Shown in pieces: positions 19,629 to 60,210 of a stretch of 64,000 nt of DNA. How positions within the stretch are numbered: the first letter of the stretch is position 1; the number at the start of each line of letters is the position of its first letter. Origin of the DNA: Zingiber officinale (taxonomy: Eukaryota > Streptophyta > Magnoliopsida > Zingiberales > Zingiberaceae). The position numbers and the translations under genes were made by a program. The notes under the pieces were generated by a model. That model saw only the letters and a list, made by a program, of their open reading frames with translations, did no database searches and was not told the origin of the DNA. The stretch lies in contig NC_055996.1 in assembly GCF_018446385.1 (NCBI RefSeq), forward strand, positions 130,372,532 to 130,436,531, read 5' to 3'.

Positions 19629-21394
19629 ATGGCGTCAATGCGCCTTATTTTCTCGTCGTTGCTCTTCTCTCTTTTGCTTTGTTCAATTGAAGGAAGAAAC
19701 AATATTCCCTTGACTGAAGAAGAAGATCTGGAGTTAGAGAATGAACTCCAAAGCCTCAACAAACCCCCGGTCAAAACCCTCAAGGTATATCAGTTCTATT
19801 CATTTTGATAATATTATTGTCATATTGATGATATATAATTTTGTTTTTTTTCTACGTTTACTTCGCTGCTGCAGTCCTTCACTGGGGATCTTTTTGACTG
19901 CATCGAAATGTACAAACAACCTGCATTTGATCATCCTGCTCTGAAAAATCATAAGCTACAGGTATTTAATTAACTATATACATGATTTTTTATATTAGCC
20001 AACAAATAGATTTACTTAATTTATATGTATGTGTTTGCAGATACGACCAAGTTTTCAAACGAAGAACAATGTGACTATGGATGAAAAAATCAAATCACTT
20101 TTAGATCAAGGCTTCAACGATACTTGTCCTCTAGGAACTGTTATCATTCGTCGAACTCGAAAAGAAGATCTAATCATAGCGAAAGAACTACCCAAATACT
20201 TCAGGAACAATGGCTCTAGATATCATGTTCTTGATTCTTCCGAACAGAATTATGTAAATAGCAAAAACACTCACAAATATCATCACAAAAGTAGAGTTCC
20301 AGCAGTTAGTTAATTCCTTAATTAAATTAATTGAATGATAATACTGTTGAATTTGTGAGTGCAGTATGCGATAGCTGAGAGCGAAAACGGTCGTTACCAT
20401 GGCTTTCAATCAAAGGTCACTACGTGGGCACTCCCAAATGTGCGGCCAAATCAAGTCTCTCAAAATCAAGTATGGCTGATGGGAGACGTCGATGGTGATT
20501 ATGACGACCTGAATGTTATTCAAACCGGATGGCACGTAAGTTGCCCTGATATATATACATTCATATGCATGCATATTTCTCATAAAATCAATTTGTTGAT
20601 TCTTGTAATTAATTTCCTTTTATTATTATTATTATTTCAGGTTTATCCCCAGCTATATAAGGATACTTCTAGTCGTTTTTTCACTTTTTTTACCGTAAGT
20701 TTATATACTCTAAAAACAACTAAACTGCGCTTTTTTAAAAGTGTCTTAAGTATATACCTACCTCACACATGGTAATGTATACATTCAGATCGACGGTTAC
20801 CAGACGGGCTGCATGAACTTAAATTGCAAAGGGTTCGTACAAGTTTCAGCAACCCTTGGACCTGGATTTGCCTTCACCGGTAGTGACCTTTCTACGTACG
20901 GAGGCAAACAAGCATACTTTGGCTTTCAAATACTAAAGGTGGTTTAGTTATATATATTGTATTTATATACTGAATGATTGTATATATTTTTAAACGTATA
21001 TGTTTCATATATATAATGGATGCAGGATCCTGAACGTGGTAACTGGTGGTTGTCAATAGTGGATAGGAATCTTGGATATTGGCCAAAGGAGCTTTTCCCT
21101 AATTTAGACGTGTCGAAATTGATACAATTTGGAGGTCAAGTGCGTACACCCAACGATGTGCCGTCTCCTCCCATGGGGAATGGTCATTTACCCCATGAAG
21201 GGCATGGTAAAGCCAGCTTTTTTACGAATGCACAGTTCATAGGGGAAGACAACCAAGCTTACACTCCGGGAGAGGGCAGTGCGTCTCTGAAAACGAATGC
21301 AGATGCCAAATATTATCAAGTCGTAGGAGATCCTCCATCCAGAGGTAGTTGGGATGTTGGTTACGGTGGACCGGGTGGGTTGGTTGCTGGGTAG
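19629..21394 (+). CDS. neprosin-family protein, gene 1 (seven exons, 399 aa)
   Basis: Exons: 19629-19784, 19875-19961, 20041-20253, 20365-20535, 20641-20694, 20789-20938 and 21026-21394. All have GT-AG borders in phase 0, giving 399 residues. Residues 1-22 form a signal peptide (hydrophobic [12 protein letters not shown]), so the product is likely secreted or vacuolar. Residues about 30-150 match the neprosin activation peptide ([10 protein letters not shown] motif). Residues about 155-399 match the neprosin domain (DUF239), with [13 protein letters not shown] and GYWPKELF. Family members such as Nepenthes neprosin are glutamic prolyl endopeptidases. Here the expected glutamates appear to be Gln (Q315 in FGGQV; Q205 in IQTGW or Q182 in NQVS), so it may be inactive or altered. 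No stop or frameshift is seen. A TATA box and poly(A) signal frame the gene. The start was chosen because it gives the signal peptide and matches gene 2. Confidence 0.92.
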
Positions 21395-21436
21395 TTACGT
21401 TATACTACTGACTGATTGTGACATCATTGTTATAAT

Positions 21437-21442
21437 AATAAA
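21437..21442 (+). terminator. poly(A) signal of neprosin-like gene 1
   Basis: AATAAA lies 43 bp after the stop codon and is conserved at 60249-60254 in gene 2. Confidence 0.55.
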
Positions 21443-22000
21443 TCGTAATCTCTTTATCGAATAAGAAAGGAAAGGTTTTGTTGACGACCTGATGTATCAT
21501 TTATACTCATTGCAATGCACTTTTCATGGACAACTTTGTATCTGCATTTTACTTAAAAGGGGAGTTTTAATGGATAAAATTATTGTCGAATAATTAGCCT
21601 TAAAGACATGAGTTTGAGTTAAGAAAATAGCCTCGTGTACTATAATGCAAAATAAAAGTATGTATAATAGATTCAATGTGATTGGATCTCACCCCTTAAA
21701 ATTTAATATTAATGGAAGTTTTTTATAATCTCCATTTTAAGTAATAATTTATAAAATTTGAATAGAAAACAAGAATATCATCTACCAATATATAGGAATT
21801 ATTACAAAAAATGGGGGTAAAATGTCCAAGGGAGATGTATGTGCCAAGAATTGAAATGCTAAAAAATGAATATTTATAGAGGAAAATTGAATTTGTCAAA
21901 CATTATTCTTGGCAAGCCAAACATATGTTGATAATTTTAAATTAACTTAATAAAACTTTTAAGGCAATCTACTTTTAATTAATTAATTTTTCAAAACTTA
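21443..22000. other. downstream region of gene 1, shared with unit 2
   Basis: A+T-rich sequence colinear with 60255-60830. No gene is seen. The homology stops at the TTA where the first Tourist-like insertion begins. Confidence 0.7.
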
Positions 22001-23165
22001 GGGGGCGTTTGGTTTAGGGGAATAGGAGTGGGGAATGGGAATGAGAATCATTGATTGTCATTGTTAATGTTTGGATTATGGGAATAGGAATACAAATAAG
22101 AGAATGAATCCTTGAAATTGGGTAATAGCTCATTCTCATGTACCTCCCCTTCAATGAGCCATTACCCCATTTTCATCAATCAAAATATTTCCTTATTCCA
22201 AAAATACCCTTGACCTAAAATTAAAATTTTCTCCCTTAATATCAAATATCAAAATATATTTATTTATTTTTTCTTTTGTATCACTTCTCTCTCCTTGTTC
22301 TCTCTCATCATATTTTCTCTCTCGTCATTTATCACACACTTTCTCTCTCCTTAATCTCTCCTATCACACTCTTTCTTTCTCATTACACTTTATCTCTCAT
22401 CATACTTTCTCTCTCCTCAATCTCTTCCATCACACTCTCTTCCTTCTTTTTTTCTCATCATACTTTCTCACTCCTCAATCTCTCCCATCACACTCTCTTT
22501 TCTCTTTTTTTCTTATCACACTTTCACTCTCGTCATATTTTCTCTCTCCTCAATCTCTCTTGTCACACTCCCTCCTTTTTTCCTCAACACACTTTCTCTC
22601 TCATCATACTTTCTCTCTCCTCATTCTCTCTCATCACACTCACTGTTCTCTTTTTTCTCATCACACTTTCTCTCTCATCTTACTTTCTCTCTCACCGTAC
22701 TTTCTCTCTCCTCAATCTCTCTCATCACACTCTCTCACCTCATTTTTTTCTCATTACATTTTGTCTCTCTTCATCCTCACCCATCATACTTTCTCTCACA
22801 TCATATTTTCTCTCTCATCTTCTCTTATCATGTTCTCTCTTATCACACTCTCTTTTCTCATTTTTTTTATCACACTTTCTCTCTCTTCATTCATTGGCAT
22901 CACACTTTCTCTTTCATCATACTTTCTCTCTCATCATTCTCTTTCATCATATTTTTCTCTCACATTAATCTTTCTCTCATATATAATTTTTTCTCTTATT
23001 TTTCTTTAAGGGTAAAAAAGGAAATTTTGATTTATTCCGATAGAAAATATGCAACTAACCAAACATTGCTTTTAAGAGTGATATCCATGCTCATACCCAT
23101 TCTCATTCCACAATACAATAATTCCCATTCCGATTCCTATTCCTAGGAATAAACCAAACGACCCC
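22001..23165. mobile_element. Tourist/Harbinger-type MITE-like insertion with a pyrimidine-rich core
   Basis: Ends are inverted: GGGGGCGTTTGGTTTAGGGG on the left and AATAAACCAAACGACCCC on the right, the GGG...GTTTGG type of Tourist elements. The flanks are TTA and TAA, so the target duplication is imperfect. Unit 2 lacks the element. The core (22262-23012) is almost pure C/T. Confidence 0.65.
22262..23012. repeat. C/T-rich simple-sequence block
   Basis: A degenerate array of CTCTCTCATCACACTTTCTC-like units. Open frames across it translate to Ser/Leu/His-rich low complexity and are not genes. Confidence 0.85.
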
Positions 23166-23499
23166 TAAGGTAATCGACTAATCTTTAGGGCGTGTTTGGT
23201 TCGGGGTTATCCTTGATAACCTTGGTTATCCATCCAAGGTTATCCTTGATAACCTTGTTTGGTTTAAGTAATTGATGATTCCTAAGTCATGATGGATGCC
23301 TGACACATCAGCAATTTGGGCATATAACCCGGAATCACAAAACCTAAGAAAAGTGGGGTTTTCCTGAATTCCGGGGTTAATAAAAATTTTAAGAAAAAAT
23401 TACCCTTCATTATTTACCATTTGAGACAAAAATAACCCTAAAGATCTATCAAATTTCAATCTACCATTTGGACAACATTCTCTCTGGTTTTCCTACTGC

Positions 23500-24110
23500 A
23501 CCGCCTCCGCACAGGCTAACAGCGCGTGGACGAGGCAGATCCAGCCTCCTGCGTGTCGACTACTACCACCGGCAGAGGAGACGCAACCGAGGTCGCCGCA
23601 TCCGTCGTCGAGGACGACGATGAGGAAGGCGAGCTGTAGAACTTGATCCTTTTCGAATCCCTCGGCGACGGCGCGACATCCAATTGGGAATCAGAGCCAA
23701 AGGCGAATCACCCTGTTGCACGCTCGGCGGGGGGAGCAGGGACTGGCATCGGCTCATAAACTTCCGTCGATGCGCGCTGCGTGACAAGGGGAAGCTCGAG
23801 GAAGCGATTCCGTCGGCCGAGGGAAGAGGAATCGTCGAAACGCGGGGGCGGCGAGAGTGGGGGAGGAGGTGCGTTAAGCTCGGAGAGGATGTCCACCCAA
23901 GTCGAGATGTGAACGGTGTCAGCTGCAAGGTGGGAAAGTAGAGCGTCGTTGCTGGTTGTGATGCTGGTTCCCATGACCATCTCCGCCTGCTCCAGTGTGC
24001 GACATCCGCCATGTCCGATGACCGGACCTTCTCCTGCTCTCCTCCTTCAACCGCCCCGCCGTACCTGCAGTCCCCTTGGTGCTCCCGTTTCATACTGCCA
24101 GATTCTGGTA
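23500..24110 (-). other. GC-rich possible gene fragment inside the Harbinger-type element
   Basis: Much richer in G+C than its surroundings. The minus strand gives open frames (23563-24198 and 23708-23980), the second with a non-repetitive stretch TTSNDALLSHLAADTVHIST. I recognise no family. It could be a captured host gene piece or a GC-rich leader. The composition jump is what I see; capture is inference. Confidence 0.35.
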
Positions 24111-24335
24111 TTTTTTTATACGGAAGTTCGTCACAGTCTGGTCCGCTGAGAACACTGCAAAAACCGCAAGAACACTTCTCCCATCTGTCTATCTCCATGT
24201 ATAGCGAGCTAAATCTTCTTCAATTAAATTAATTCCATCATAAAAATCTAATCTTTATCTATTATGTTTACTTTTGTGATTTTGTTGGAACAGGATCAGG
24301 CACACAGGAAACATAAAATAATAAACAAAAAAATC

Positions 24336-24338
<3 letters not shown>

Positions 24339-24398
<60 letters not shown>
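24339..24398. repeat. (AT)n microsatellite
   Basis: About 60 bp of uninterrupted AT dinucleotides inside the Harbinger-type element. Confidence 0.95.
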
Positions 24399-24401
<3 letters not shown>

Positions 24402-24625
24402 TATTAATAATATAATATTATCATTATTAAAACAAGGATAATATGGTAAAATATCACGTTAAGTTATATACTAAAACCTCCAAACAAATAAGATTTTATT
24501 GGATTACCTAAATTGAACCAAACAACCAATGGTTATGTTTCATTCCCTATAACCTTGGTTATGCGATTACTTGGTAATCACATAACTAAGGTTATGTGTT
24601 ATAACTTGAACCAAACACACCCTTA

Positions 24626-25384
24626 AGGTAATATGCAACTAACCAAACGACCCCTAATTATTTTTTTTAGTCCAAGTATCAAGTTCTTCAAATCAACTAA
24701 TCTTTAAGGTAATCGACTTAATCTCACGGAAGTTTTCAACGACTATCAGGATAAATTGAAAAGTACTCACACAGATCTATCTAAATAACTAATATTTTAG
24801 ATATGTTTCTTACACTAGACAAAATCCCAAACAATACACCCCCACTAAGATTAGAAGCTAATCGTAAGTATTATGGATTATGGTGCATGACTTTTTTAAT
24901 CAAAGAACAAAATAATTTGGAAAGATGCACTTAGTTTTTATTTTTTATTTTCGGTAAAGGCATCCTTAAAAAAATATCAAAAGGATTTTCAAAAATATTA
25001 TTATTTTAGAATATAGTAGCTATTTAAAAGTACTTAATTTAAATAAAATTACCACTTAAAATACACTTATATTAAAATAGTTTTCCTGAATTTAATCTAA
25101 ATTATTCAAACTAAATCAAAATCACTCTAGATTAAATCACTTTAACACAATTATAACAATTATTGTAATTATTATCATAAATTCTATAAATATATTTATT
25201 TTGATCAATTTTGAATAATTTAAATTAAATTTTTAAAAAATATTTTAATATAATAATACTTCATATATAATAATTTAAAATAAAAGTACTAAATAAATTT
25301 ATTTTAACATATTATATATAACAATTATAGACATAATTGATATAATGAAACTAAAATGATATTTGTGAGGTGAAAAATATAATA
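24626..25384. other. intergenic DNA shared with unit 2
   Basis: A+T-rich sequence. From about 24690 it is colinear with 60830-61500 of unit 2, apart from the SINE there. No gene is seen. Confidence 0.6.
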
Positions 25385-25640
25385 GGCAATAACTAATTAA
25401 ATCCTACAATTGGGCCATTTGGACTTTCTTATTAGATTTCATTTAACTCATTCGTTTTCCATTTGCTAATTGTATTTAAAATCATCTTATTTTAATTGAT
25501 CCTTTTTTTTTTTTTTGCAAAATCTTAATTTCTTTTTCATGTCTCATCAAAACCTTCTCTCTTTAATTTATAAAGGATACCATCAAGTGTTCCAATTGGG
25601 TATCCCAACCTTATCCAATCCCAACTTTGCTTTTATATAT
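25385..25640. repeat. duplicated intergenic segment, copy a
   Basis: Matches 27230-27480 in order (core CCATTTGGACTTT, then CATTTAACTCATTCGTTTTCC, then CCAACCTTATCCAATCCCAA). Unit 2 has this block once, near 61545-61742, so the repeat arose within unit 1. Confidence 0.75.
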
Positions 25641-25862
25641 ACACACACGCACAACTGATGTAGACTAGGTATGATAATTTCATCTGAATTTAATAAGTAA
25701 TTTGATATCCGATCTGAATGGAGGAGGATATGGAGAGAATTTTATACCTAATTATAGTAAATGAATATTCTTATTTAGGTATGGGTATTTCAAGTATGGG
25801 TATTTCGAGTATAGGTATGAAGACGGATGTGGTAAAATTCTATCTATACTTTACCCGATACC

Positions 25863-25924
<62 letters not shown>

Positions 25925-26270
25925 CCATCTTAAAAAAAAGTCTTAGTTTGCCTCTTTATCTGGTCATCAACTAGTATCTTATCTTCGTTTCCACGAGAAA
26001 TGTTCATCCAATCGAAAGAGCGTGAGACGAGAAAGAGCTGACGTGAGAGGAGGAAGAGCTGACAAATACATTGAATTTTTTTTTTTAAAAAAAAATGAGA
26101 ATGGTGAGTATGATGAGTAGAATATGAATACCCGAAACTCCGACAGGTATAGAGATGAGTATGAAAGTTAAATACTCGATGAGTTTGAGGATGAGTATGA
26201 GTATAGATATAATAAATGGAGATGGGTACAGAGGATATGAAATCCTACCCATTGTTATCCTTATTGCAGA
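25641..26270. other. insertion specific to unit 1, unclassified
   Basis: This roughly 630-bp block is absent from unit 2 and from the second internal copy at 27450. It contains GGTATGGGTATTTC-type repeats, CCCGATACCCGATA, and an (AT)n run at 25866-25921. It is probably a non-autonomous transposon, but I cannot assign a family or clear target duplication. Confidence 0.45.
25866..25921. repeat. (TA)n microsatellite
   Basis: More than 50 bp of TA repeats. Confidence 0.95.
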
Positions 26271-27229
26271 CTTGGTCCGTGATAGCGTATTTTTTTAATT
26301 AATTAATTTATTTTGTTAAGCTTTCGGTTATGTTAAAAAAAATTTACTTTTAGAATTTAGGGTTGGGATTGTATTATAATACTTAATAAAAAAATTAAAT
26401 TAATTTTTTTTGAGGTTTGTACAAGATGTGTGTTGGGTAAGATCCTTTTATATATATGAAAAATGACGTGCAGAAGGGAAAATCTCAAGTAAAATCTAAG
26501 GGATAGACATATAAAATGATGGAGCCCATAAAAGTAAAAATGATAGGTCATTAATTTATGTGTCTATCTTTTTTTTCTGATATTTTTTCTCTTATATATA
26601 TATATATATATATATATCCCCGATCCCTGCCTCCATTGTTTGACACCGTCCTCACCGCCATTCCTTGTCAGATTCCTCACCCCGACTTCCAAGTTCCCTT
26701 TCCCCTCTCGACAAGCTTGTCCTCACCGAGACTCCAAAGTTCCCTCTCCTCGCTAGTCACTGTGACTTTTCTCTTGTCCTCGCCACGACTCCAAAGCTCC
26801 CTCTCCTCACCATGACTCTTCCTCGCCGCGATACTTAAGTTCTATGTCTTAGGAGCAAACTCAGCCAACGCCACCCAACACTAGGACCGATAACAACTCT
26901 TTTTCTTTCCTAATGACTATAAACTTAGCTTTGTCAATTTTGTTGTAGGCATGGCTTATCTTCTATTTAATTAAATCTTTTTTTTCTATTCATTTAACTT
27001 TGTTGGATACGAATTAACAGAGTTAGTGTGGTGTGATTTAGGTACCGATGGTATAAAAAATAGTAGAATGTTTAAAGCTACTTTGAATTGCACAAAATTA
27101 AGACTTTTGTACAGTGAATGTTTTGTTATAGGTTAATAGATCATCATCATCAAACAATTACTTTTAATTATAACTTTATAAGTGATGAGAAAAAGTCTTT
27201 TATTTGACTAAGTTCACCAAATATAATTA
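26271..27229. other. intergenic DNA shared with unit 2, including a leader-like GC-rich block
   Basis: Colinear with 61830-62620. The part at 26620-26900 is C-rich and contains repeats of a CGACTCCAAAG-TTCCCTCTCCTC motif, matching 61990-62280. It resembles an untranslated first exon (a CAGGACCG|GTAACG donor-like junction is seen in the unit 2 copy), but no protein can be read. Confidence 0.5.
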
Positions 27230-27600
27230 TCACTAATTAAATCCTTCAATGGGGGCCATTTGGACTTTTATATTAGATATCATTTAACTCATTCGTTTTC
27301 CAGTTGCTAGTTATATTTAAAATCATCTTATTTTAGTTGATCCTTCTTTTTTAAAATCTTAATTCCTTTTTGATCTCTCATCAAAACCTTCTCTCTTTAA
27401 TTTATAAAGGATACGATCAAGTGTTCCAATTAGGTATTCCAACCTTATCCAATCCCAACTTTGGTCCGCGCTAGCGTATTTCTTGTTTTTCTTTATTTAA
27501 TTTTTTTAAGCTTCTGATTATGTGAATAAGAAGGGTTGAATTATAATAAAATATTAAGTATAAAACAAATCTCAAATCAATTTTTTTAAGGTTTGCACGG
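27230..27600. repeat. duplicated intergenic segment, copy b
   Basis: Second copy of 25385-25640, continuing into sequence matching 26275-26420. Together they indicate a tandem duplication with a period of about 1.85 kb. Confidence 0.7.
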
Positions 27601-35569: not shown

Positions 35570-35955
35570 ATACCTTATAAAAAGTTCGTCCTCGAACTTA
35601 GAATAACTCTGGGTACTTCTGTCTCATACTAGCTTCTGTCTCCCAAGTTGCCTCTTCTGTTGTGTGATTTTGCCAAATAACTTTTACTAATGGTACCTCC
35701 TTATTCCGTAATTTCTTAACTGCTCGGTCTATTATTTGAATAGGCCAACTGTCATAGCTGAGGTCTTCGCGGACTTGTACCGACTGGGGCTCAATCACCT
35801 GGGTGGCATCTGGGATATGCTTCTTCAGCATGGAAACATGAAATACATTATGGATAGCTGACATCTCCTGGGGTAGTTCTAGCTCATATGCTACCTTGCC
35901 AACTCTTCTGGTGATAAGGTATGGTCCCACATATCTGGGATTGAAATAACCAGGA
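35570..35955 (-). pseudogene. Ty3 integrase C-terminal region (fossil)
   Basis: The minus strand gives RYVGPYLITRRVGKVAYEL, then HNVFHVSMLKKHIPDATQV, then WENHTTEEATWE-like residues. This is the integrase C-terminus and chromodomain-like end of Tekay-type polyproteins, lying directly next to the LTR as expected. Confidence 0.8.
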
Positions 35956-38117
35956 GAATACTGTACTAACCAGGACCTGGTACAAAGATAAATAGTCTGA
36001 GAGGTATAGAAGTCCTGTATGCATGCCAAGCATGGGCATCCAACCAATATGCAGCAAATAAATGCAGCAAACACAATCACAAGAAATAAATGCATCAATG
36101 CGTATGATGCCAATGCAGTCATGGTCACCCCTGACGCTAGTCAGTCATCTCACACACAATGGTGGGACCGAGTGGGTAGGGTTGTGACAACCGTGCACTC
36201 TGCATCACTACTCCTGATGAGTGACCGAGTGGACGGGATGCTGTCGGAGTACACACATACTCCTACCCCAAATCATAAATGGGGGAGCGCAATGCTCTCA
36301 TCTCCCGGTACACAATGACGGGGAGGGATCTCGACGTGCTACCACGCTGAAATCACACTACCCATGAGCGGACCAACGGAGCACCGAACAAGCAAACTGA
36401 CATGCTACCACGCTGCGTCACGCTACCCATGAGCGTCACAACGGATCACCGAACAGTGATGAAACTGGCGATGTGCTCGACAATAATGGAGCAATATATC
36501 ATGCAGCATGCAATCATGCGAATAGTGCATGACACTAAGCATGGTAATATACTGAACCAATCTATATACATATATGATGTGCACCATAGTCAATAAATCA
36601 TATCAAGGGTACACAGATCAGATAAGATATCACACCTAGGTTCTGAACATGGTGAAGCATGGTTATATCACTACCCCTAAGCATGTATAATCAGGTAAGC
36701 AATAACATGAGATGCAAAACAAACAATCAACCAAGCATGTAACAGGTATCGGGTAGTGACTAACCGAAACAAAAATAAGAAACATAATTATTGCTATTTG
36801 TTAAATTCACTACTATGCATATCAAAGACATAAAGTCAAAAGTACCCGCCTCCAATAAGAAATGGTCCAATCCGATAATCGAGATACTCGTCTCGCGTCA
36901 AGGTCTTGTATATTAAACATAAGGTCTAGTTTAGCTAATTCTATCATACAACAATTAGCCAAACTAAATTCTAATCCAATTTAAGAAGTTCTAAATTGGA
37001 TCCAACTAATCCATCCAACACAATTAATGAACCCTAATCAACATATAACAATCTATTTCTTAATTCCAACTCAATCTACAACACGAATACAACTCTCTAC
37101 TTCTTACCTCAATTCTTCTTCAGCCGTTCTGTAATTGCAACAGACCCAATCAGCAATGGGATGGCTGGAATTGAGGAAACCCCAATCTGCAACCCGGTCA
37201 GAACCAAAAGAAAAAAAGGATGGTGGCACTGTAGAACCTGGTGGTCAACAAGGGTGGTCAATCGTGCTTGTCGCAGTTGCAACTTGCTCCAGCAAAGGTC
37301 ACTGCAACAAGGCATCACCCAGATCAGAGACATTGAAATCGGCAGCCCTAGAATTGCGATCAGTAAGCCAACCTACTGACATTACCTGAACCGGTGCCCT
37401 TCTTTCCCCCTGCCGGCAACTGGTGGACGGAAAAGGTCGGCCCGATACTGAGTCTAGGGCACGGGAGGTGACACTAAGGGCACGAGCACAGAGGAGGTCG
37501 CGCGATCGGCTGGCACCACTGTGCTGGCTTCGTGCGGGAAGAAGGCGGCAAAGTGACGGCGGTTGTGGCCCAAATCTAGGACAGAGGGCGTCCGAGAAGA
37601 AATCGGTTGGGAAAACTCGGGATGGAGGAAGAGGAGAGAAGGCCGACACTGCTCGGCGTCGGCGGAGATGCTAGGGCACAGAGGGACGGCGATCGGCGCT
37701 GGGGAAACAGTGTCGGCAGTGGCGTCGGGGTTGGCTAGGGCACAGACCGGCGGTGGCTCAGCGGAGAAGGAGAGAAAGGGGAAATCGGTTGGGGAAGAAG
37801 AAGGGAAGGCTTAAATTGCTAAGGAGAAAAACCGCTGCGGCGGTTAGGGCCGGCGTCGGGCGCGAGCGCGGGCGGGGTGTCAGCACGCGAGTGAGTTCGG
37901 CGAGAGAGAAAAGAAACGAAGAAATAAAAGAAAAGTAAAGAAATAAAATAAATAAATAAACAATTCCTCACTTAAATGGGTAGCCTAAACAGGCTTTCCC
38001 GGGCCTCGTTTTTATCCCCGTAAACGTGTCCATACGAGCTCCGAAAAATTCCCGAAAAATTTTCAAAAATTCCGAAAAATTTCCTTATTAATATTCGCTT
38101 ATTTTCGGTATTTTACA
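35956..38117 (-). mobile_element. partial Tekay-like LTR
   Basis: Colinear with 39685-41858 of the LTR described below: shared CTGTACTAACCAGGACCTGG at the left, shared TATTTTACA at the right. It includes a GC-rich leader-like zone (37380-37930). Short frames in this zone are composition artefacts. Part of a broken element. Confidence 0.75.
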
Positions 38118-41858: not shown

Positions 41859-44541
41859 TTCTCCCCCACTAATAAAAAATTTGGACCCCAAATTTCGTTA
41901 TCTACCATCAGCAAGTACTAACAACAGATAGAAAGTATAAATGCTGAACGGAAAATAACCCACATACCTCAAGTAAAAAGGTGGGGGTATCAAACTCGGA
42001 TCGTATCCTCGAGCTCCCAGGTAGCCTCCTCATCCGAATGATGCTGTCATCCGACTTTAACGAGTTGGATAGTCTTGTTTCACACCTGACGCTCTTTCCT
42101 GTCCAGAATCCGTACTAGAACTTCATCATAAGTGACGTCAGGCTGAAGGGAAACTGAGACATCTGCCAGCACATGTGTCAGGTCGGGTATGTATCTTCTC
42201 AACATAGATACGTGGAATACGTCGTGGACGCTTGCCAGGGACGGTGGTAGTGTCAGCCGGTAAGCTACTGCTCCAATCCTCTCCAGGATCTGGAAAGGGC
42301 CAATGTACCTTGGAGCTAGCTTACCTCTGAGGTCAAATCTCTTCACCCCTTTCGTGGGTGAAACTCACAAAAATACATGGTCACCTGTAGAGAACTCCAT
42401 GGGTCTCCATCTCCGATCAGCATAACTCTTCTGCCGGTCCTGCACCTCTGACATCCTCCGTCTGATAGTACGGACCAACTTTGCCTCATGCTGAGCTCTA
42501 TGAGGTCCCAACAGCTGGGCCTCCCCAACCTCATCCCAGAGGGTGGGTGTCCGACAAGGCCTACCATACAACGCTTCAAACGGTGCTATCTGGATAGCCG
42601 AATGAAAGCAGTTGTTGTAGGCGAACTCTACCAATGACAAATGGTCCTCCCAACTGCCTACAAAATCCAATACACAAGACCTCAGCAAGTCCTCTAGAGT
42701 CTGAATGGTCCACTCTGACTGTCCATCTGTCTGCGGATGGAAGGTTATACTGAAATGGAGCTGAGTGTGTAAGGCCTGCTGCAGACTCTGCCAGAATCGA
42801 GACGTGAACCAAGGGTCTCTATCCGAAATAATAGTCAAAGGGACACCATGTAATCTGATGATCTCCTGGCAATACAGATCTGCCAATCGATCCAGGGAAT
42901 CAGTCTTCCAGATCGCTAAGAAGTGCGTGGATTTGGTTAATCGATCAATGATTACCCAAATCGCATCATGGCCTCGTCGTGTCCTTGGCAAATCCACCAT
43001 AAAGTCCATGGTAATGTGTTCCTATTTCCACTCAGGAATAGGAATCCGCTGAAGTAATCTGGCAGGTCTCTGGTGCTCAGCCTTCACCTGCTGACAGATT
43101 AGACATCTTGCTACAAATTCTGCAATGTCTTTCTTCATGCCGTTCCACCAGTAGGAACGCCTCAAATCTCGATATATGCGGGTCCCACCTAGATGGATCG
43201 TAAATCGAGAGCGATGAGCCTCTTCAAGTAGCTCCTGTAAGACCGGGTGAGACTGAGGTACGTATAATCTACCTCGGAAGTATATAATACCCTCCTCATC
43301 TCGTGTGAATTCGGTCTGTTGCCCGGAAGCTATTTGGCTGCCAATAAACTGTAAATGCTGATCACCGACCTGGACCTCTCGGATCCTAGTCCTAATCGAC
43401 GACTGAGCAATCATGGTAACCAACATACCCTGCTCTGTCCGTCCCTGCTCCTGAAGGCCCAACTAGGAGAATCCCTGAATCAAGTCCGTGACTAAAGCTC
43501 GAAAGCAAGCCAAAGTCCCTCTGGACTTCCTGCTGAGTGCATCGGTAACCACATTAGCTTTCTCTGGGTGGTAGCTAATGGTACAATCATAATCCTTCAA
43601 ATACTCCATCCATCTCCTCTGTCGGAGATTAAGCTCCTTCTGGGTGAACAGATACTTGAGACTCTTATGGTCAGTGAGAATCTCAAAGGTAATACCGTAT
43701 AGATGATGCCGCCAAATCTTCAGAGCAAATATAATAGCAGCCACTCCAAATCATGCACTGGGTGGTTCTTCTCATGCTCCTTCAACTGTCGAGAAGCATA
43801 GGAGACTACCCTGTTGTGCTGCATCAGAACAGCGCCCAAACCCTGAAGAGATGCGTCGGTGTAGAGCACGAATCTGTCCTCTCTGAAGGGTAAAACCAAA
43901 ATCGGAGCGGTGGTGGTGGTGCCGGGTACATCGCAGGCTCGATCAAAGCAGGTGCGGGGTATGCCGGTAGTACCCCTGGTGGTACCGTAAATACGGTAGG
44001 GGTGGGTACAGCGGGTGCAACCGAGGTAGGTACCTCTAAAGGAGCCATCGGGATTTAAGAGCCCGACGTGCTCGCAGTATCCTGAGTCTGTCCCTGACCG
44101 ACAGGCTCAAACCCAGTAGGGATCTCTGGCGAGTCTGTTGCCAGAGATTCCAAGGTCCTCTTACGTGGCCGTCCAACACCACGTCTTGCAGCTACTCGTG
44201 TAGATCTCCTCATATCTGTTAAGTTATAAAATAAATATCACTACAAGTATAAAAATTATAAAATTAACCTTTATACCTATTTGCCGTTTGGAGATGTTCC
44301 ATCGCTGTTCAGTCCCCATATATAACCTCAGAATTCCGTATGAGTAAATCAATGGAAATCCATACAAATCTGAAAATAAGTACCCAGGTTTACTGGTAAA
44401 CTTGGGCTAACCCTAAAATCCAGAACACCAAAAGCAGGTATCGTAACCCGCTCTGATACCAATAAATTGGTATCAGATTAAATCTTGAAAATCCATAACA
44501 CGAAAAACAAACAACTATCGCCAACTTGGCTCTGATACCAA
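41859..44541 (-). mobile_element. interior of the second Tekay-like element (fossil, incomplete)
   Basis: On the minus strand, from right to left, I recognise four parts. They are a primer site (44528-44540), a gag start (MRRSTRVAARRGVGRPRK-like, near 44210), an RNase H end ([20 protein letters not shown] region, 43463-43744) and an integrase. The integrase has a zinc-finger part near 43080-43190, an ITMDFMVDLPRT core near 42950-43010 and a C-terminal end at 42080-42346. The element is broken and clearly incomplete for its family. Confidence 0.82.
42080..43462 (-). pseudogene. Tekay-like integrase region (fossil)
   Basis: Segments in family order on the minus strand: the HHCC zinc-finger part (RCLICQQVKAEHQRPARLLQ), the catalytic core (VDLPRTRRGHDAIWVIIDRL, HPQTDGQSE) and the C-terminal region ([20 protein letters not shown]). 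Identified as Ty3 chromovirus integrase. Broken. Confidence 0.85.
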
Positions 44542-49596: not shown

Positions 49597-49613
49597 TTGT
49601 AAAGGTTGTTGAA

Positions 49614-52142: not shown

Positions 52143-53700
52143 CTTGTTGAAGATACGCAACCATTCTTTGATGCTTGTACTGTATATAAGAAAAAGGAAA
52201 ACCATAGATGGAAGAGGGATCCACCTCCACACAACATTGTTTCCTCATTGAGATATGCTCTTTTTTTTGTTGAGCTACCATGATGGTGACTGTGTATCAG
52301 TGATGTGTAAAAGATTTGGCCTTTGTAACAAAAAATATGTATGTTTTGATGACACATTGATTCATATAACTTTTTTTTTTATATTCATGTTGATCCATGT
52401 TTTGTATAGAAAGGAATTTTTGTAATTAACACCCAGCAACCTTGAAAGAATATTTATTATTTTGTATGTAATCAAAATGCAAATTATGCTTTATAGCTCA
52501 GATAAGTTCTGTAGGCGATTCACAAAATAAATCAATGCAAATTTCATAATAATGATCCTTATTAGTCGCCAAATTGCTAACGCTGAGTGCAGTGCAAAAA
52601 AAAAACACTCTTATGAAATGAAGTTTTGGGCTTCATTGAATCATTGAAAGAAATAGAACAATGGGAAATGGAACACAATCTTAATGACTTGAATATCTTA
52701 TTTGGGATTTCCTAGTAGAATGCTACAAGAAAATTCTTGGTGAAATAAATTACAAACTCAGATGAGTTAATTTCATATAAATTTGCTGTAAATAATTGAT
52801 ATACACTGTGCCTCAAGCATAAGCAACACATGTATTAAGAAGAAAATAATACTAAGGGATCATCCACGGACTTTTCCTTCAATATTTAGGCTTCAAAATT
52901 AGTCTCATCATTCTCCATCACTAGATCAACATCCATTATATCTCGACAGCCAAAGAGCTAGCAGCTTGGGAGTAGGTCAGAGACCAAGCAACTATTCTTG
53001 GTGCCCGTCCTGCATATCCACAATTTTTTTTTTTAAAAAAAAATCTGCATTAGCAATCTAAGAAAGGGTAAACTTCAGTCAGTCAATACTCTATAGTCAG
53101 GAGTATGGAACCTGATCAGCGTGAGAAACAAAGTCAACTCATCTCTGACTTCTTACTTGTTCCGAGATCTCCTGTGTGCTTGCTTTATCTTTAAAAAAAA
53201 TACGTTCATTTTTTGTCTTGAACCCAGTTGGTGCTTAGTTCTCTTTCTTATTTGCACAATGATAGTTGGATCTGAAAGACAACAGAAAAAGAAAATGTGT
53301 AGAAGTGGATGCACTTAATCCAACTGAAAACTCTATAAATTCATCTAACAGACATTGTCTCCAAACCTGTTCATAGGAGAAAATAACAAGATGTCGTGAC
53401 ACACTTAAAAATGTTCTCCAGATTTCATAACTTCTACGCTAAATGCACTGCCAGTTTACATGTCAATAACATCTACACATATGACAGTAGAATGAATGCA
53501 AACCCACAAGTAACTGAATAACATAACCAAATATATATTACTAACAAAGTATGACCATTAGAAGTACAATTGACAGGATTTTATGCAAGTTAAAAATGAA
53601 GAATTGGTGAAGCTTAGCTTAGGTAGCAAAAGGGTTGTATGTAAGAAAAGAATAAATGAATTGCAAATAACACGAAATTCTAGAATTAAGAACAATCCAC
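52143..53700. other. Pack-MULE interior after the invertase fragment
   Basis: Probably begins with the captured invertase 3' UTR. The rest is A+T-rich, with no recognised protein. Confidence 0.5.
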
Positions 53701-53747
53701 ACATAAAAATGGAGATGACTGGAATATTTGAGAAGATGTAGAGGACC

Positions 53748-53860
53748 AACCTTTGACAAAGATCTTCAAAGATCAAGATCCGTTCCAAATGCACAACACC
53801 GCTTGCATTGCTTAAATAATCTTCAAATTGCTCTGTCCACACGGTGCCAAGGACGGAGGT
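53748..53860 (-). other. unidentified exon-like segment next to the right MULE arm
   Basis: The minus strand reads TVWTEQFEDYLSNASGVVHL and on to FEDLCQ, then a GT donor-like junction. It is non-repetitive and protein-like but I do not recognise it. It could be a second captured exon read outward from the right arm. Confidence 0.35.
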
Positions 53861-54457
53861 CGCTGGAATCGAATTCGAGGTCGCTAGAGGCCGCTGGAGG
53901 TGGAGGACGGGAGGTTGCTGGAGGTCAGCGATGCTGAAGGGAGGCGGCACTGGAGGTCGGCGATGCTGGATGTTGAGAGGCTAGGGCTTTTGTGCGGAGT
54001 TGGCGCTGGAGGTCGACGCTGAGAGAGCGCTGGAGGGAGGGAGGCGACTGGAGAGGACGCTGGAGGGAGGGAGGCGACGCTGGAGTTGGAAGATGCTAGG
54101 GCTTTTGTGCGTTGGCGTGTGCAGGAGGGCGGCGCTGGAGATCGGCGCTGGAGGGTGGCGACGAGGGAGGTCGGCGCTGGAGACGGCGTTGGAGGCAGGG
54201 AGGCGACGCTGAGGCCGCTGGAGGTCGCCGCGGGCGCTGGAGACGGCGCTGGAGGGAGAGAGGTCGTGGGAGGGAGGTCGCCGGGGGCTGGAACGTGGGG
54301 GACAGGCTCGCTGGAGGGAGGCGACGAGAGGAAGAGGCTAGGGCTTGTTTTTCTGTGCGTTGACGCGTGCACGTGCTTCGTGCGTGAGGGAGGATTTTAT
54401 ATGAGGAATGTGGTCCAGGAGGGGACCAGAGATTTCGGGTCCAGAAGATCCGGCCCC
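53820..54457. repeat. right long terminal inverted repeat of the Pack-MULE
   Basis: Inverted partner of 49683-50278. It ends GATCCGGCCCC just before the 9-bp duplication. Confidence 0.85.
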
Positions 54458-54466
54458 GATTCTCAG

Positions 54467-54588
54467 GAACTGATGACCTTGGGTTTATCCCACCATGCGC
54501 CTATGACCTGTGTACCTACATGTACCTTCCTCTATATCGATGGGGCCGATACTAGGGGGGCCCTAAGGTAGCAGATTTACCTTTTTTT
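54467..54588 (+). mobile_element. tRNA-derived SINE, 3' part
   Basis: Continues the SINE from 49682 (GAACTGATGACCTTGGG onward) and ends in a T-run (54582-54590) before the second target duplication. The total SINE is about 190 bp. Confidence 0.8.
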
Positions 54589-54605
54589 TTGTAAAAGTTG
54601 CTGAA

Positions 54606-55592
54606 TATTATGTAAATTCTGATTTGGAGGTGGTTGTTGGTAGAATGAATTACCGTACTTCAAATTAGGATGATCCTTCCATCTCGAATTGTAGGTAGTT
54701 GAATTGGGGTCATATCTTTGTTGGAATTGAGGCCTAGCTATAGCTACCAATGATTCATCTTGATGGAGATTTGGACATAAATTTTAAGTGTAATCTTGAC
54801 TCGAACAAATGCCACAAACCCTCATGACTTGAACGGGAAAAACTAAAGTTTGGTTAGCATTATTCAATGCCATTTGTTTGACCAAAGACGTCAACTCCAA
54901 CAATGAACTCTTGATTTCCTTTTGCTCTTTAGATACCAATTGAACTTCATCGACCCTCTAGTAGTAAGTTCTACTCCCAAATTGTTGAGAATTTTCGGCC
55001 ATATTTGAAATAAGCTCCCTAGCTTATTCTGGAGTCTTATTAACCAAAGCTCCTCTAGCTACTATATCAATCATGCTCCTACCATGGGGAGTAATCCTTC
55101 ATAAAACTATTGAATAAGTAAATGATCACTGATTTAATATTGAGGACAACTTGAACACAATTTCTTGAACCTTTCCCAATAATCATAAAGAGTCTCTCCT
55201 ACAACTTGTTGAATTCCGCAAATGCTCTTCCTTATAGTTGTGGTTCTTGAAGCTGGAAAGTATTTCTCTAAAAATGCTCTCTTCCTATCAATCCAACTCA
55301 TAATAAATCTGACTGGAAGATAATATAACCATTCCTTTGCTGCTCCTGACAAAGAAAATGGAAAAGCTCTCAGCTTGATATCTTCACCTGAAATGCCCTC
55401 TGGCTTTATGGCTGAGAAAATCACATGGAACTCATGTAAATGCCTGTTAGGATCTTCCCCGAATAAACCTTGAAACTTAGGAAGCAAATGTATTAAGTCT
55501 GATCTAAGCTCAAAATCCACTGCCAGATCTAGATAGGTAATGCAAGAATACTTGTAGGCCATATCAGGAGCCGCAAGCTCCTTCATAGTCAA
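54606..55592 (-). pseudogene. Athila gag region (fossil)
   Basis: The minus strand gives FQGLFGEDPNRHLHEFHVIF, LRAFPFSLSGAAKEWLYYLP, FLEKYFPASRT and GETLYDYWERFKKLCSSCPQ (55134-55592), the conserved retrotransposon gag core of Athila/Ty3 elements. Broken. Confidence 0.88.
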
Positions 55593-55872
55593 GTTGTTTT
55601 TTGCCGTTGAAGTAACTTAAATTTGAGGATTATTTTTAGAAATTTCTGGTGTCCTCTCTTGAATTCTCAAAGCTCTAAAAGTCCTCTCAATCTCTGGATC
55701 AAGTCAAGTAACTTATCACACGAAGACCTAGTCATGAAACAAAATCAATTATTAGAACACAAGTATTAAGGTAATAAGATCAAGAAAATGAAAACAAAGG
55801 AAAAAAACAAAACTATGCACAATCTAAAACAAACACACAATTATTTCGTTCCCCGACAACGACGTCAAAATT
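55593..55872 (-). other. Athila leader with primer binding site
   Basis: Untranslated leader. On the minus strand CGTCGTTGTCGGGGAACG lies just after the LTR (about 55850-55867), close to the TGGCGCCGTTGCCGGGG-type primer site of Athila elements. Confidence 0.7.
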
Positions 55873-57557
55873 TGATGACTGTGAAGTTGAGTGTCAAGAG
55901 TGGCCTTCAAATTAACAATTTACAATTCAATGAACCTCTTAACTATACAATTATGTTGTAATAAAGAGTCCAAGATTGGATCTCTCGAGGAACTAACAAT
56001 TAAATGTTTGTCTTAGACTTAGAACTATTTTGGGGTTTCCATCATAGACATGAGGGTTGTTTGGCTTTTGGATTAAGGTCTAGTAATAAAATAGCAAAAC
56101 AAGTATGAGATTAACCCTAATGAAATGAACAACTTCCTATCCACCTATTAATAGTGAACTCACAACATATTGTCACACTATGTTATGCTTTCACCATCAA
56201 TAGAATTCAACTAAGGAATGAAATAAAAAAGCTTGAAATGGAACCTAATCTAGTGAATGAGGTCACTACAGCAAAAGAGAAACTAATTGCATCTAATGAT
56301 TTCTAAATGAAGTAAAGAACTAACCTTGATTGTGACTGAAAACGCAAATTTATACAACTAACCTAAACTACTCCTTAACAAGGAAACCTAAGCTAAGCTT
56401 AATGGAACTAAATTAACAACTAAACTAATTGATAAAAATTGAAATACAACTAAAGAACAAAAAAGATCAAGAAACAATTCTAATCCATATAACATATCCC
56501 TTTGGAATTTTTGCAAGAAAAAATAGAATGGAAGAGTAAAGAAATAGAATTCAGAATCTAAGAATAGAGACAAAATTGCAATTACAAAACTAAGTGTGCA
56601 AAAGCTTTAAATGAACTAGAATTGTAGAAATAAAAACATGTAAAACAGAATTGCATCAACATAAGTTCAGAATCTAAAGGAACAAAACATCTCAATTCCC
56701 TAACCACACTCCAACATTCCTTCTCCTTGGCATTACACAAGGAAACACAATGACACTTCATGAGATGTTGGAAGAAAAGAACCTCAGCTACAACTCAGCC
56801 ATGAAGAGTTAAGAATGCCCAAGAAACCTCCCAAGTGAACAAAGACCAATTGGGACTGTCAACGAACCGAAATATGGAATTCTGCAATCTGGAATCGCTG
56901 CTCGTAGATGAAGGCTGCGGAAGATGAAATGTCGTCGGAGGAGACTCAGCAACACTGGAAGAACACCGCCTGTGTTGCTGAGGTGAGGATGGACCAAAAG
57001 ATGGGAGGAACGCCTCCTAATCAGTGGCAAAAATAAGAAATCGCGGACTGGAATCACCATCGAGAAACCTCCGCCATTAGTTCCTGATGATCGGAAGTTG
57101 ATTGCCGGTAGTTGAAGACTTGAACGTCGGATGCTGAGATGCAGATCTGGAATTGGAACGGGGCTATGCGTCTGTGCGAGGAAGAAGACGGCACGGTGAA
57201 CAGTAGCACAAGCCACTTTTCATCATGCCAGACTTGGTTTTTATACTCTGTGTGGTTCGGTCCAACGCAGTGGCTTGAGCCCAGTTCAAGTGGAATGTTT
57301 TAAGGGCAATTGATGAGAGGTCAAACTTGGGTTGAGCTCAATGGGTTGGAAAGTGAGGTTTGGACTTCTTTATTGGTTGAATGAACCAAGCCTCCATTTG
57401 AATCATGCATCAATTTAAATGTCCTACAAGACCAAATTGACAAATATCTCATGCATTAAGATGAAAAATATATTTAAGCACAAAACGATTCTTAATCTAT
57501 AAACATCTCAAATGCGGTAATTAGCAAATACAATTCATTCAAAATTACCCAACCTCA
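55873..57557 (-). repeat. Athila 5' LTR (unit 2)
   Basis: 1685 bp from TGATGACTG to a CATCA-like end (here CCTCA). Its right three-quarters match 1-1445 plus 18511-18616. It is intact in the sense that no nested element interrupts it, unlike unit 1. Confidence 0.82.
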
Positions 57558-58428
57558 ACTAAAAAGACGTTGAATGTCAGACCAGTCAGAAAAAATTTAT
57601 CGAAATTAAACAATCAATATTTTACCATGTGAATCATTTAAGAAATCATCATAATTTTTTATATTTTTAAAATTTTAAATTTTTTTACTAAAACTCTAAA
57701 ATTTAAAAAATGAATAAATTTAAGAAATCATCATGATTTTAATGATGTATTTTTTTTAAAAAAAAATGAGCTTTTAAAATCATCAATGACTTTTATATGA
57801 AATTTCTTAATAAAATAATTAAAATTTTACTTTTTTTTATTTAGTTAGGTCGAGTTATTTTTTTGTATTTAAATAAAAAAAATTATTTATTATTTTAATT
57901 TAGACTGATAGGTAAAAAAAGGTATTTTTTTAGAGAAAAATGAATGATGCGCCTTCTAAAAATTCTAGAGCTTTGAGTTTATCCTCTCGTAAAACGCCGA
58001 GGATAAAATAAAAAAGAAAAACAATCCGCATACAGATTTTAAATCAAACAGTCTATCATTTTTTAATAAATAATCAGAGAAATGGGCTTCGACTCTTGGA
58101 ATCTATCCTTTAAATTCTCCTTTTCTTAGAAGTAACAAGATTAATATTAGGTAAGTCATTAATATTATAATATAATTAGTTAATATGAAATAAATTTATT
58201 ACTATATAACAAATAAGTGTATAGAGAATTTTATCCTTTCAAGAATATTTTTGACATCAATGCTTGCATTAAGCAATCAATCAATTAAGTTGATGATACA
58301 TATATAGAAATTTATTTGTGGTTACAAAAAAAACATTTATGTCATATTTAATATTACATATATATATAAGGGCCTCATATTTAGTAGATATTAACCTGAC
58401 ATTTATTTTGGTTTTAGAATTCTTATAA
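57558..58428 (+). other. upstream region of neprosin-like gene 2
   Basis: Colinear with 18700-19577. No other gene is seen. Confidence 0.7.
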
Positions 58429-58436
58429 TATAAATA
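58429..58436 (+). promoter_or_regulatory. TATA box of neprosin-like gene 2
   Basis: TATAAATA, 42 bp upstream of the ATG, equivalent to 19578-19585. Confidence 0.6.
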
Positions 58437-58477
58437 GATATATGTACATGAGAAGAAGAGCAAAATAGTTTGTCATT

Positions 58478-60210
58478 ATGGCATCAATGTGCCTAATTTA
58501 CTTGTCATTGCTCTTCTCTCTTTTGCTTTGTTCAATTGAAGGAAGAAACAATATTCCCTTGACTGTGGAAGAAGATCTGGAGTTAGAGAATGAGCTCCAA
58601 AGCCTCAACAAACCCCCGGTCAAAGTCCTAAAGGTTTAAGTCTGATTCATTTTAATAATATTATTTGCCATATTGATGATATATAATTTTTTCTTTTTTT
58701 ATGTTTACTTCGCTGCTGCGCGCAGTCTTTCACTGGGGATCTTTTTGACTGCATCCAAATGTACAAACAACCTGCATTCGATCATCCTGCTCTGAAAAAT
58801 CATAAGCTACAGGTATTTAATTAACTATATACATGATTTTTTATATTAGCCAACAAATAGATTTTCTTAATTTATATGTATGTGTTTGCAGATTCGACCA
58901 AGTTTTCAAACGAAGAACGATGTGAATATGGATGAAAAATTTAAACCAGTTTTAGATCCAGGCTTCAACGATACTTGTCCTCTAGGAACTGTTCTCATTC
59001 GTCGAACTCGAAAAGAAGATCTAATCATAGCTAAAGAACTACCCAAATACTTCAGGAACTATGGCTCTAGATATCATGTTCTTGATTCTTCCGAACAGAA
59101 TTATGTAAATATCATCGCAAAAGTAGAGTTCCAGCAGTTAGTTAATTCCTTAATTAAATTAATTGAATGATACTCCTGTTGAATTTGTGAGTGCAGTATG
59201 CGATTGCTGAGAGCCAAAACGGTCGTTACCATGGCTTTGAATCAAAGATCACTACGTGGGCACTTCCAAATGTGGGGCCAAATCAAGTCTCTCAAAATCA
59301 AGTATGGATGATGGGAGACGTCGATGGTGATTATGACGACCTGAATGTTATTCAAACCGGATGGCACGTAAGTTACCCGGATATATATATACATTCACAC
59401 GCATGCATATTTCTCATAAAATCAATTTGTTGATTCGATCTTGTAATTATTATTATTATTTCAGGTTTATCCCCAGCTATATAAGGATACTTCTAGTCGT
59501 TTTTTCACTTTTTTCACAGTAAGTATATATATTCTAAAAACAACTAAACTACGTTTTTTTAAAAGTGTTTTAAGTATATACCTACCTCACACATGATAAT
59601 GCATATATTCAGACCGACGGTTACCAGACGGGCTGCATGAACTTAAATTGCAAAGGGTTCGTACAAGTCTCAGCAACCCATGCACCTGGATTTGCCTTCA
59701 AAGGTGACAACCTTTCTACGTACGGAGGCTTACAAGCATACTTTGACTTTCGAATACAAAAGGTACCTAGTGTTGTTTATATATATATACTGAATGATTG
59801 TATCTATTTTTAAACGTATATGTTGAATATAATGGATGCAGGATCCTCAAAGTGGTAACTGGTGGTTGGCAATGGACCGTGCCAATCTTGGATATTGGCC
59901 AAAGGAGCTTTTCCCTAATCTAGACGTGTCGAAATTGATACAATTTGGAGGTCAAGTGCGTACACCCAACGATGTGCCGTCTCCTCCCATGGGGAATGGT
60001 CATTTTCCCCAAGAAGGGTATGATAAAGCCAGCTTTTTTTTGTTTTCACGGTTCATAGGGGAAGACAACCAAGCTTACACTCCGGGCGAGGGCAGTGCGT
60101 CTCTGAAAACGAATGCAGATGCCAAATATTATCAAATCGCAGGAGATCCTCCATCCAGAGGTGACTGGGATGTTGCTTATGGTGGACCGGGTGGGTTGGT
60201 TGCTGGGTAG
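58478..60210 (+). CDS. neprosin-family protein, gene 2 (seven exons, 399 aa)
   Basis: Exons: 58478-58633, 58726-58812, 58892-59104, 59197-59367, 59465-59518, 59613-59762 and 59842-60210. All are phase 0 with GT-AG borders, identical in length to those of gene 1. It has a signal peptide (residues 1-22), an activation-peptide domain and a neprosin domain. No stop or frameshift is seen. It differs from gene 1 at 48 of 399 residues by my count, against 17 codons changed only silently. Changes cluster in exons 6 and 7 (for example SIVDR to AMDRA, TNAQ to LFSR). It shares Gln at the positions where catalytic Glu is expected (NQVS, IQTGW, FGGQV), so that change predates the duplication. Likely a secreted protein. 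Activity cannot be judged from sequence alone. Confidence 0.92.

Follow-up and report, generated by a model that had tools for sequence, protein, structure and literature searches.

Two ginger genes from a putative tandem family of catalytically dead, diversifying neprosins

Two neprosin-like genes, copy 1 (c1) and copy 2 (c2), lie in a 64,000-nucleotide stretch of the Zingiber officinale genome (the window, C11:130372532-130436531 of the 3.09-Gb assembly; C11, C12 and so on are contigs, and L-numbers are loci). We propose, with a probability of roughly 0.7, that both belong to a tandem array of pseudo-peptidases, neprosins that are secreted and catalytically dead and on which diversifying selection acts, with an inferred function. 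When the other members of the array are considered, three kinds of evidence support diversifying selection in the catalytic part: pairwise maximum-likelihood (ML) estimates, site models compared with a simulated null, and counts of differences between paralogues and between positional counterparts.

Both genes are intact, as an earlier interpretation of this DNA (the sequence-only reading) had claimed. Each spliced model holds 399 codons with no internal stop or frameshift, all introns are GT-AG and the seven exons are of equal length in the two copies (156, 87, 213, 171, 54, 150 and 369 bases). Each predicted protein begins with a hydrophobic stretch, seen by eye, that may be a signal peptide, and carries the Neprosin activation-peptide domain (PF14365; E = 9.6e-25 for c1 and 5.1e-23 for c2, 87.9 and 82.3 bits against a cut-off of 39.2) followed by the Neprosin domain (PF03080; E = 1.2e-58 and 2.5e-58, 198.4 and 197.4 bits against a cut-off of 22). 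Among relatives of solved structure the closest is pitcher neprosin (PDB 7zu8), with 37% identity across the aligned part. A point missing from the sequence-only reading is that the catalytic dyad of that enzyme, Glu188 and Glu297, is absent, with Gln at both positions in both copies. The oxyanion-hole residues Gln173 and Trp175 (c1 Q187 and W189) are retained and do not vary among the 19 array models with seven exons. Lys118, the plug lysine of the pro-domain, is kept too; the C-terminal cysteine pair is missing. No proline stands at the position aligned to the self-cleavage site Pro128, where the alignment is weak and where dyad-keeping genes also have no clear equivalent. Neprosins with the single changes E188Q or E297Q are reported to fold, to be inactive and not to self-activate, and the Q173A and W175A proteins are reported to be inactive as well (PMC9343461). 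With a full-length profile match to the homologous domain and its catalytic residues lost, c1 and c2 encode predicted pseudopeptidases.

It is most unlikely that these proteins still act as peptidases by means of other catalytic residues, such as the cysteines proposed for LOTR1 of Arabidopsis. LOTR1 carrying alanine in place of C255 and C260 is reported to fail to complement, and a Cys/His centre has been suggested (PMC8794472); a cysteine pair in a TGC..L.C motif (235 and 240 in c1), presumed without aligning LOTR1 to be its C255/C260, is kept in the ten array genes printed. In pitcher neprosin, however, the aligned C219 and C224 form a disulfide, and activity is reported to be abolished by changes at E188, E297, Q173 and W175 (PMC9343461).

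Over their 399 codons, c1 and c2 differ at 48 with an amino-acid change and at 17 silently only, and over the 172 codons of exons 6–7 these counts are 29 and 4, exactly as the sequence-only reading gave them. The Nei-Gojobori ratio of non-synonymous to synonymous divergence (dN/dS, or ω) is 0.74 for the whole gene (bootstrap 0.49–1.35), 0.37 for exons 1–5 and 1.53 for exons 6–7 (0.82–3.59). The ML values are 0.74 for the gene (twice the log-likelihood difference, 2ΔL, from ω = 1 of 1.18), 0.34 for exons 1–5 (2ΔL 7.94) and 1.75 for exons 6–7 (2ΔL 1.73), and the significant signal of the pair is the constraint in exons 1–5. One block of differences, SIVDR/AMDRA, is best read as an in-frame 3-bp loss and 3-bp gain a few bases apart; counting it as five replacements was rejected, as the printed sequences point to one 3-bp deletion and one 3-bp insertion. 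With codons 287–292 masked, exons 6–7 hold 24 amino-acid-changing and 4 silent codons (ω = 1.43), and exons 4–7 together give ω = 1.00. From the values before and after masking, we conclude that exons 1–5 of the pair are under constraint and that its catalytic domain changes in a neutral-like way. The excess over neutrality that the sequence-only reading saw in exons 6–7 is not significant for this pair.

The introns supply a local yardstick, differing between c1 and c2 at 44 of 526 bases (0.084), and the flanks differ at 94 of 1,492. Intron 2, from which the sequence-only reading took its distance, does differ at 1 base in 79, but none of the other five introns has diverged so little (intron 6, the highest, differs at 14 of 79). 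The dN of the pair is not raised above the local introns, and ω in exons 6–7 is not significantly above 1. Differences are over-dispersed along the 3.2-kb alignment (variance/mean 2.55; 0 of 2,000 permutations as high), so that the clustering described earlier is real; since the non-coding differences alone are similarly clustered (2.43; 0 of 2,000), clustering is itself no mark of selection on the protein. With the ω tests and the intron comparison non-significant, we rejected the idea that the window pair by itself demonstrates positive selection. The positive selection first suggested for the pair gains support in the catalytic part when other array members join the comparison.

The array that holds c1 and c2 spans about 0.7 Mb (C11, 130.13–130.82 Mb), and a collinear array lies on C12 (143.17–143.84 Mb). 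Both were found by searches with a Pfam model, the c1 protein and c1 exon 7, the counts of which are lower bounds, and the genes in 20 stretches were modelled with a splicing program of our own. C11 carries nine intact genes (L010, L011, c1, c2, L014–L017 and L018a) and four partial or broken copies (L012a, L012b, L013 and L018b), and C12 carries nine intact genes (L019–L025, L027 and L028), together with L026, which has lost its exon-4 acceptor, and the broken L029. Judging by order and similarity, the C11 and C12 copies are probably alleles, and the pairing of large contigs suggests a haplotype-resolved diploid; the data are two chromosome copies of one assembly. None of the 18 intact array genes has Glu at position 297 (Q in 6, V in 8, I in 2, A in 2), and position 188 is Gln in 16 of them. 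The two others, L018a (C11:130.815 Mb) and L028 (C12:143.825 Mb), are the only intact array genes with Glu188, which may be a reversion or a retention; both have Val at 297.

Across the genome, a census gave at least 192 profile matches, and we read 41 loci outside the array in a non-random choice (the 8 best, 20 high-scoring and 13 from other clusters or lineages). Both Glu residues together with Q173 and W175 occur in 7 of the 8 best and all 20 further high-scoring loci (27 of 28), and in 1 of the 13 others; where contigs are paired, the loci on them are probably allelic, which means that the counts are not of independent genes. The remaining 13 of the 41 lack at least one Glu, among them L060, which has Gln188 and whose position 297 is not covered. 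The C-terminal cysteine pair is present in 27 of the 28 both-Glu loci (all but L040 were read), in none of the ten array genes printed and in none of nine loci of the C9/C21/C3-type lineage. In a protein tree, all both-Glu sequences fall with pitcher neprosin and a bacterial neprosin on one side of a branch with 97% ultrafast bootstrap, which fits an old loss of the dyad followed by amplification. L006, L055 and L056 are separate inactive-looking lineages (E/S, T/S) that have lost part of the dyad and kept the C-terminal cysteine pair, and L061 (C9:148.58 Mb) has both Glu residues and lies inside a C9 cluster, where the two neighbours read (L050 and L051) are without the dyad. A scan of genome contigs found one bacterial relative, L001 (positions 1054–2613 of a contig binned as a Nitrospiraceae metagenome), an intronless neprosin with both catalytic Glu residues and a pro-domain region; a scan of viral contigs found no relatives.

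Tests of selection across the array excluded the five broken or partial models (L012a, L012b, L013, L018b and L029). Despite its lost acceptor, L026 was kept in the averages over all pairs, the pooled tests, the list of selected sites, the block and counterpart comparisons and one restricted set. Over the 171 pairs of 19 models, which are far from independent, the ratio of mean dN to mean dS is 0.45 in exons 1–3, 1.29 in exons 4–5, 1.98 in exon 6 and 1.30 in exon 7, and dN exceeds dS in 7, 126, 139 and 113 pairs, respectively. Pairwise ML, which requires no tree, was applied to exons 4–7 of c1 against six genes and c2 against three genes of the main subgroup of the array (group 2). All nine comparisons are significant (ω = 1.66–2.15, p = 0.002–0.04) and, having one deep branch in common, non-independent. 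Other group-2 pairs give 3.21 (L017–L018a, p = 0.013), 2.43 (L016–L018a, p = 0.026) and 1.50 (L010–L016, p = 0.32).

Site models, fitted to ten genes with a program that we wrote, give 2ΔL between models M7 and M8 of 1.5 in exons 1–3, 18.0 in exons 4–5 and 61.0 in exons 6–7, with site classes of ω = 4–8 in exons 4–7. For exons 6–7 the M8–M8a statistic reaches 60.5, whereas none of 28 null simulations that allowed recombination between blocks exceeded 20.3. These simulations used three block trees and exons 6–7 only, which leaves the exons 4–5 test uncalibrated, and their M0 ω values (0.56–1.07) bracket the simulated mean of about 0.67. Restricted sets, for which no null was simulated, give 61.8 in exons 6–7 (nine genes, with L011 dropped and c2 codons 287–292 masked), 28.5 (C11 group 2) and 22.2 (C12 group 2). 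Exons 6–7 therefore contain sites with ω above 1 that are robust to recombination and alignment, the mark of a diversifying tandem family.

The third line of evidence sets paralogues on one chromosome copy against positional counterparts on C11 and C12. In exons 4–7, nine counterpart pairs hold 77.3 non-synonymous and 40.7 synonymous differences (per-site ratio 0.57), as against 171.5 and 40.5 in four C11 paralogue pairs (odds ratio 2.29, p = 0.002) and 195.7 and 51.3 in four C12 paralogue pairs (p = 0.005). In exons 1–3, paralogues and counterparts do not differ (p = 1 for C11, 0.61 for C12). Seven of the counterpart pairs give a per-site ratio of 0.41 in exons 4–7 (lower-tail p = 2e-6); L016/L025 and L017/L026, which stand outside this count and inside that of nine, hold 35 of the 77.3 replacements. 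Such constraint between counterparts is consistent with a conserved non-catalytic function. Relative to introns 4–6, replacements are in excess among the pooled C11 pairs of group 2 (p = 0.005) and among the C12 pairs (p = 0.0009), the paralogue pairs for pooled tests having been picked by closeness.

Neprosins that keep the dyad served as a control (24 of the 28 both-Glu loci, using only pairs with a catalytic dS of 0.02–1.2 and including counterpart pairs). Their catalytic ω is 0–0.40, dN exceeds dS in none of 58 pairs, and catalytic ω is below pro-domain ω in 36 of the 42 pairs for which both are defined. In the array, catalytic ω exceeds pro-domain ω in 35 of 36 C11 pairs, the remaining pair being undefined, so that the relation between the two domains is mostly reversed.

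Several results weigh against diversifying selection. The c1/c2 pair alone gives no significant excess over neutrality, with dN not above the local introns, and ω over exons 4–7 is 1.0 for c1/c2, for both copies against L011 and for L014–L015. Pooled paralogue pairs show no significant excess over silent sites (p = 0.09 with four C11 pairs, 0.10 with the three C11 pairs of group 2 and 0.22 with four C12 pairs), nor do C11 pairs including the window pair over introns 4–6 (p = 0.14). Constraint on the pro-domain is unclear: in the nine comparisons of window genes with group 2, ω for exons 1–3 is 0.59–0.89 and in none differs from 1, and pro-domain ω for c2 against group 2 reaches 1.42. Exons 1–3 of the C12 group-2 set also give a 2ΔL of 12.5 in the site models. 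Recombination inflates the site test, with 12 of the 28 null simulations above 3.84 (nominal 5%), which makes nominal p values unusable. Other inactive-type loci (on C3, C9, C21 and C22 and at 102 Mb on C12) have catalytic ω of 0.25–0.74, with dN above dS in 0 of 28 pairs; on these figures we rejected diversification as a general trait of inactive neprosins, and these loci, whose silent divergence is larger, do not compare like for like with the array.

Some of these points are what relaxed constraint would produce, with catalysis lost, the domain drifting neutrally and the array decaying. The neutral-like exons 4–7 of the window pair and the non-significant pooled excess over silent sites speak for it, as do the broken and partial copies, the lost acceptor of L026 and the ω of the other inactive-type loci, mostly above that of both-Glu genes. 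We nevertheless regard it as unlikely in view of the ω of about 2 between window genes and group 2, the site classes well above 1, the constraint on exons 4–7 between counterparts by either count and the nine intact genes on each chromosome copy.

A second rival is gene conversion. Group-2 genes are mosaic copies whose nearest relative switches from exon to exon, and exon 6 is identical or nearly so in several array genes that are diverged elsewhere. The sequence-only reading had named conversion with a third paralogue as a process that could undo its claim; conversion is indeed present in the array, and by itself it does not make dN exceed dS. That conversion from other paralogues creates the patches and makes selection unnecessary is very unlikely, even though differences are patchy in non-coding sequence too. 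It carries silent and replacement differences alike and so cannot alone push pairwise ω above 1, and the recombination-null simulations fall short of the data. The partial copy L013 speaks for conversion: over the first 79 bases of exon 7 it agrees with c1 at 11 of the 12 positions where c1 and c2 differ, and between 165 and 182 it agrees with c2 at all 4. It differs from c1 at 46 positions and from c2 at 53, however, and c1 and c2 differ from each other at only 30, so that what it shares with each may be ancestral. Among intact copies, c1 is nearest L021 in all eight blocks and c2 is nearest L022 in seven of eight (one tied), c1/L021 being nearer in exon 5.

Within the array proteins, 15 sites of the ten-gene set have an M8 posterior above 0.9 (naive empirical Bayes, unmasked), all within exons 4–7. 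The last 59 residues are enriched in them (9 of 59 against 6 of 188, p = 0.002). The S3-subsite position Tyr194 (c1 211) is among the variable sites, and the old E297 position has a posterior above 0.95 in two of three restricted sets. A concentration of selected sites in the substrate cleft was considered and rejected: cleft residues are not significantly enriched (p = 0.07–0.62), the strongest contrast being 4 of 15 against 24 of 232 at a posterior above 0.75 (p = 0.07) and other thresholds weaker. Of the 34 replacements between c1 and c2 in exons 4–7, 6 fall on the 15 M8 sites, as against 9 of the other 213 codons (p = 0.009); one of the 6, codon 291, sits in the mis-aligned block.

Under diversifying selection on dead neprosins, the history and working of the array may be as follows. 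The catalytic dyad would have been lost long ago, and the lineage then amplified in tandem. Comparison across the array supports an ex-catalytic domain that diversifies between paralogues, with mosaic exchange of segments, and exons 1–3 (putative signal peptide and pro-domain) that evolve more slowly. The protein would be secreted and folded and might work by binding without cutting. Its ligand might be a peptide or a wall protein held within or close to the former cleft, or else a partner that docks on the C-terminal face, with a binding preference that differs from paralogue to paralogue. Without cutting there would be no self-activation, so the pro-domain would stay attached or be cut by others. 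The setting is, tentatively, probably reproduction or defence: DUF239 genes are reported to be enriched in the Arabidopsis central cell, alongside defensin-like genes (PMC3266888), and in pineapple to account for 4 of the 28 hub genes in a module correlated with the ovule (PMC7483743), which hints at a reproductive role. The defence or pollen–stigma roles suggested by the sequence-only reading are still conjecture. A bolder version, possible but rather unlikely, is a hypervariable secreted binding protein with a constant and a variable part, in which the ex-catalytic domain, released when catalysis and the C-terminal disulfide were lost, would be diversified by positive selection and conversion, with a steadier pro-domain. 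Such a protein could act in recognition between pollen and ovule, or in that of proteins from pathogens or herbivores.

The features of the window are collected in Table 1. A search with both proteins (tblastn) found no third neprosin copy in the window, other short matches being at chance level (E above 3). Positions 1–1851 are a neprosin upstream flank pieced together from parts that resemble the flanks of both copies, with no neprosin gene behind it. Remnants of long terminal repeat (LTR) retroelements with gag, integrase and RNase H domains lie between and around the copies (4170–5199, 35598–36140, 42365–44106 and 55134–55616). A long CT-rich repeat just 3' of c1 (22158–23146) is open in all three forward frames and resembles low-complexity sequence, and positions 8001–12000 have a G+C content of only 0.187 and a strand skew, unlike the remaining window.

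Table 1. Neprosin-like genes, substituted catalytic codons and duplicated segments in the window
Feature	Position	Strand	Basis
c1 gene span	19629..21394	+	
c1, neprosin-like, seven exons (with stop)	19629-19784, 19875-19961, 20041-20253, 20365-20535, 20641-20694, 20789-20938, 21026-21394	+	spliced model
c1 exons 4–7, putative former catalytic domain, diversifying part within the array	20365..21394	+	
c1 codon 205, CAA (Gln), at pitcher catalytic Glu188	20521..20523	+	alignment to PDB 7zu8
c1 codon 315, CAA (Gln), at pitcher catalytic Glu297	21137..21139	+	alignment to PDB 7zu8
c2 gene span	58478..60210	+	
c2, neprosin-like, seven exons (with stop)	58478-58633, 58726-58812, 58892-59104, 59197-59367, 59465-59518, 59613-59762, 59842-60210	+	spliced model
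c2 exons 4–7, putative former catalytic domain	59197..60210	+	
c2 codon 205, CAA (Gln), for Glu188	59353..59355	+	alignment
c2 codon 315, CAA (Gln), for Glu297	59953..59955	+	alignment
Duplicated segment surrounding c1, 90.6% identity to 57567-60825	18711..22001	+	window self-comparison
Duplicated segment surrounding c2	57567..60825	+	window self-comparison
Third copy of the upstream flank (1-1424 resembles 56130-57438; 1446-1851 resembles 18091-18505)	1..1851	.	self-comparison

Neprosins have been studied as active prolyl endopeptidases. Among the papers listed in a literature search that covered subscription journals thinly, we found no account of such an array or of positive selection on a neprosin. 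If our reading is right, a lineage with a dead dyad has been amplified in tandem and changes fastest where its relatives are conserved, so that a plant protease fold would have been reused for variable binding.

Like pitcher neprosin, a glutamate-class prolyl endopeptidase (PDB 7zu8 and 7zva), c1 and c2 have the two-domain layout, the cysteines of C52–C98 and C219–C224, Gln173, Trp175 and Lys118; unlike it, they have Gln at both catalytic Glu positions and lack any cysteine in the C-terminal part, the location of the neprosin disulfide C358–C379. As they naturally carry both of the changes that singly gave a folded, inactive neprosin, they could be used directly to fish for natural ligands. 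LOTR1 of Arabidopsis is reported to be unprocessed, with its pro-domain still attached, and to have 42 further relatives with both Neprosin domains (the HOLO family, PMC8794472); c1 and c2 resemble this group as putative secreted wall proteins of a large family with duplications, and are set apart by description, neither a lost Glu dyad nor diversifying selection being mentioned in the available text of that account. Pseudopeptidases of other clans, such as inactive ADAMs and collagen-binding M14 carboxypeptidases (PMC11266112), are similar in having lost catalytic residues and in having non-catalytic, partly extracellular binding roles; they have metallopeptidase folds, and the abstract of that source describes no tandem array in which a former catalytic domain diversifies. 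Closest to hand are the inactive-type loci of the same genome (L050–L054, L057–L059 and L062), which have also lost at least one dyad residue and the C-terminal cysteine pair and, in several cases, stand in tandem clusters. Unlike c1 and c2, these loci have changed Gln173 and Trp175 too, and the eight compared show the lower catalytic ω given above.

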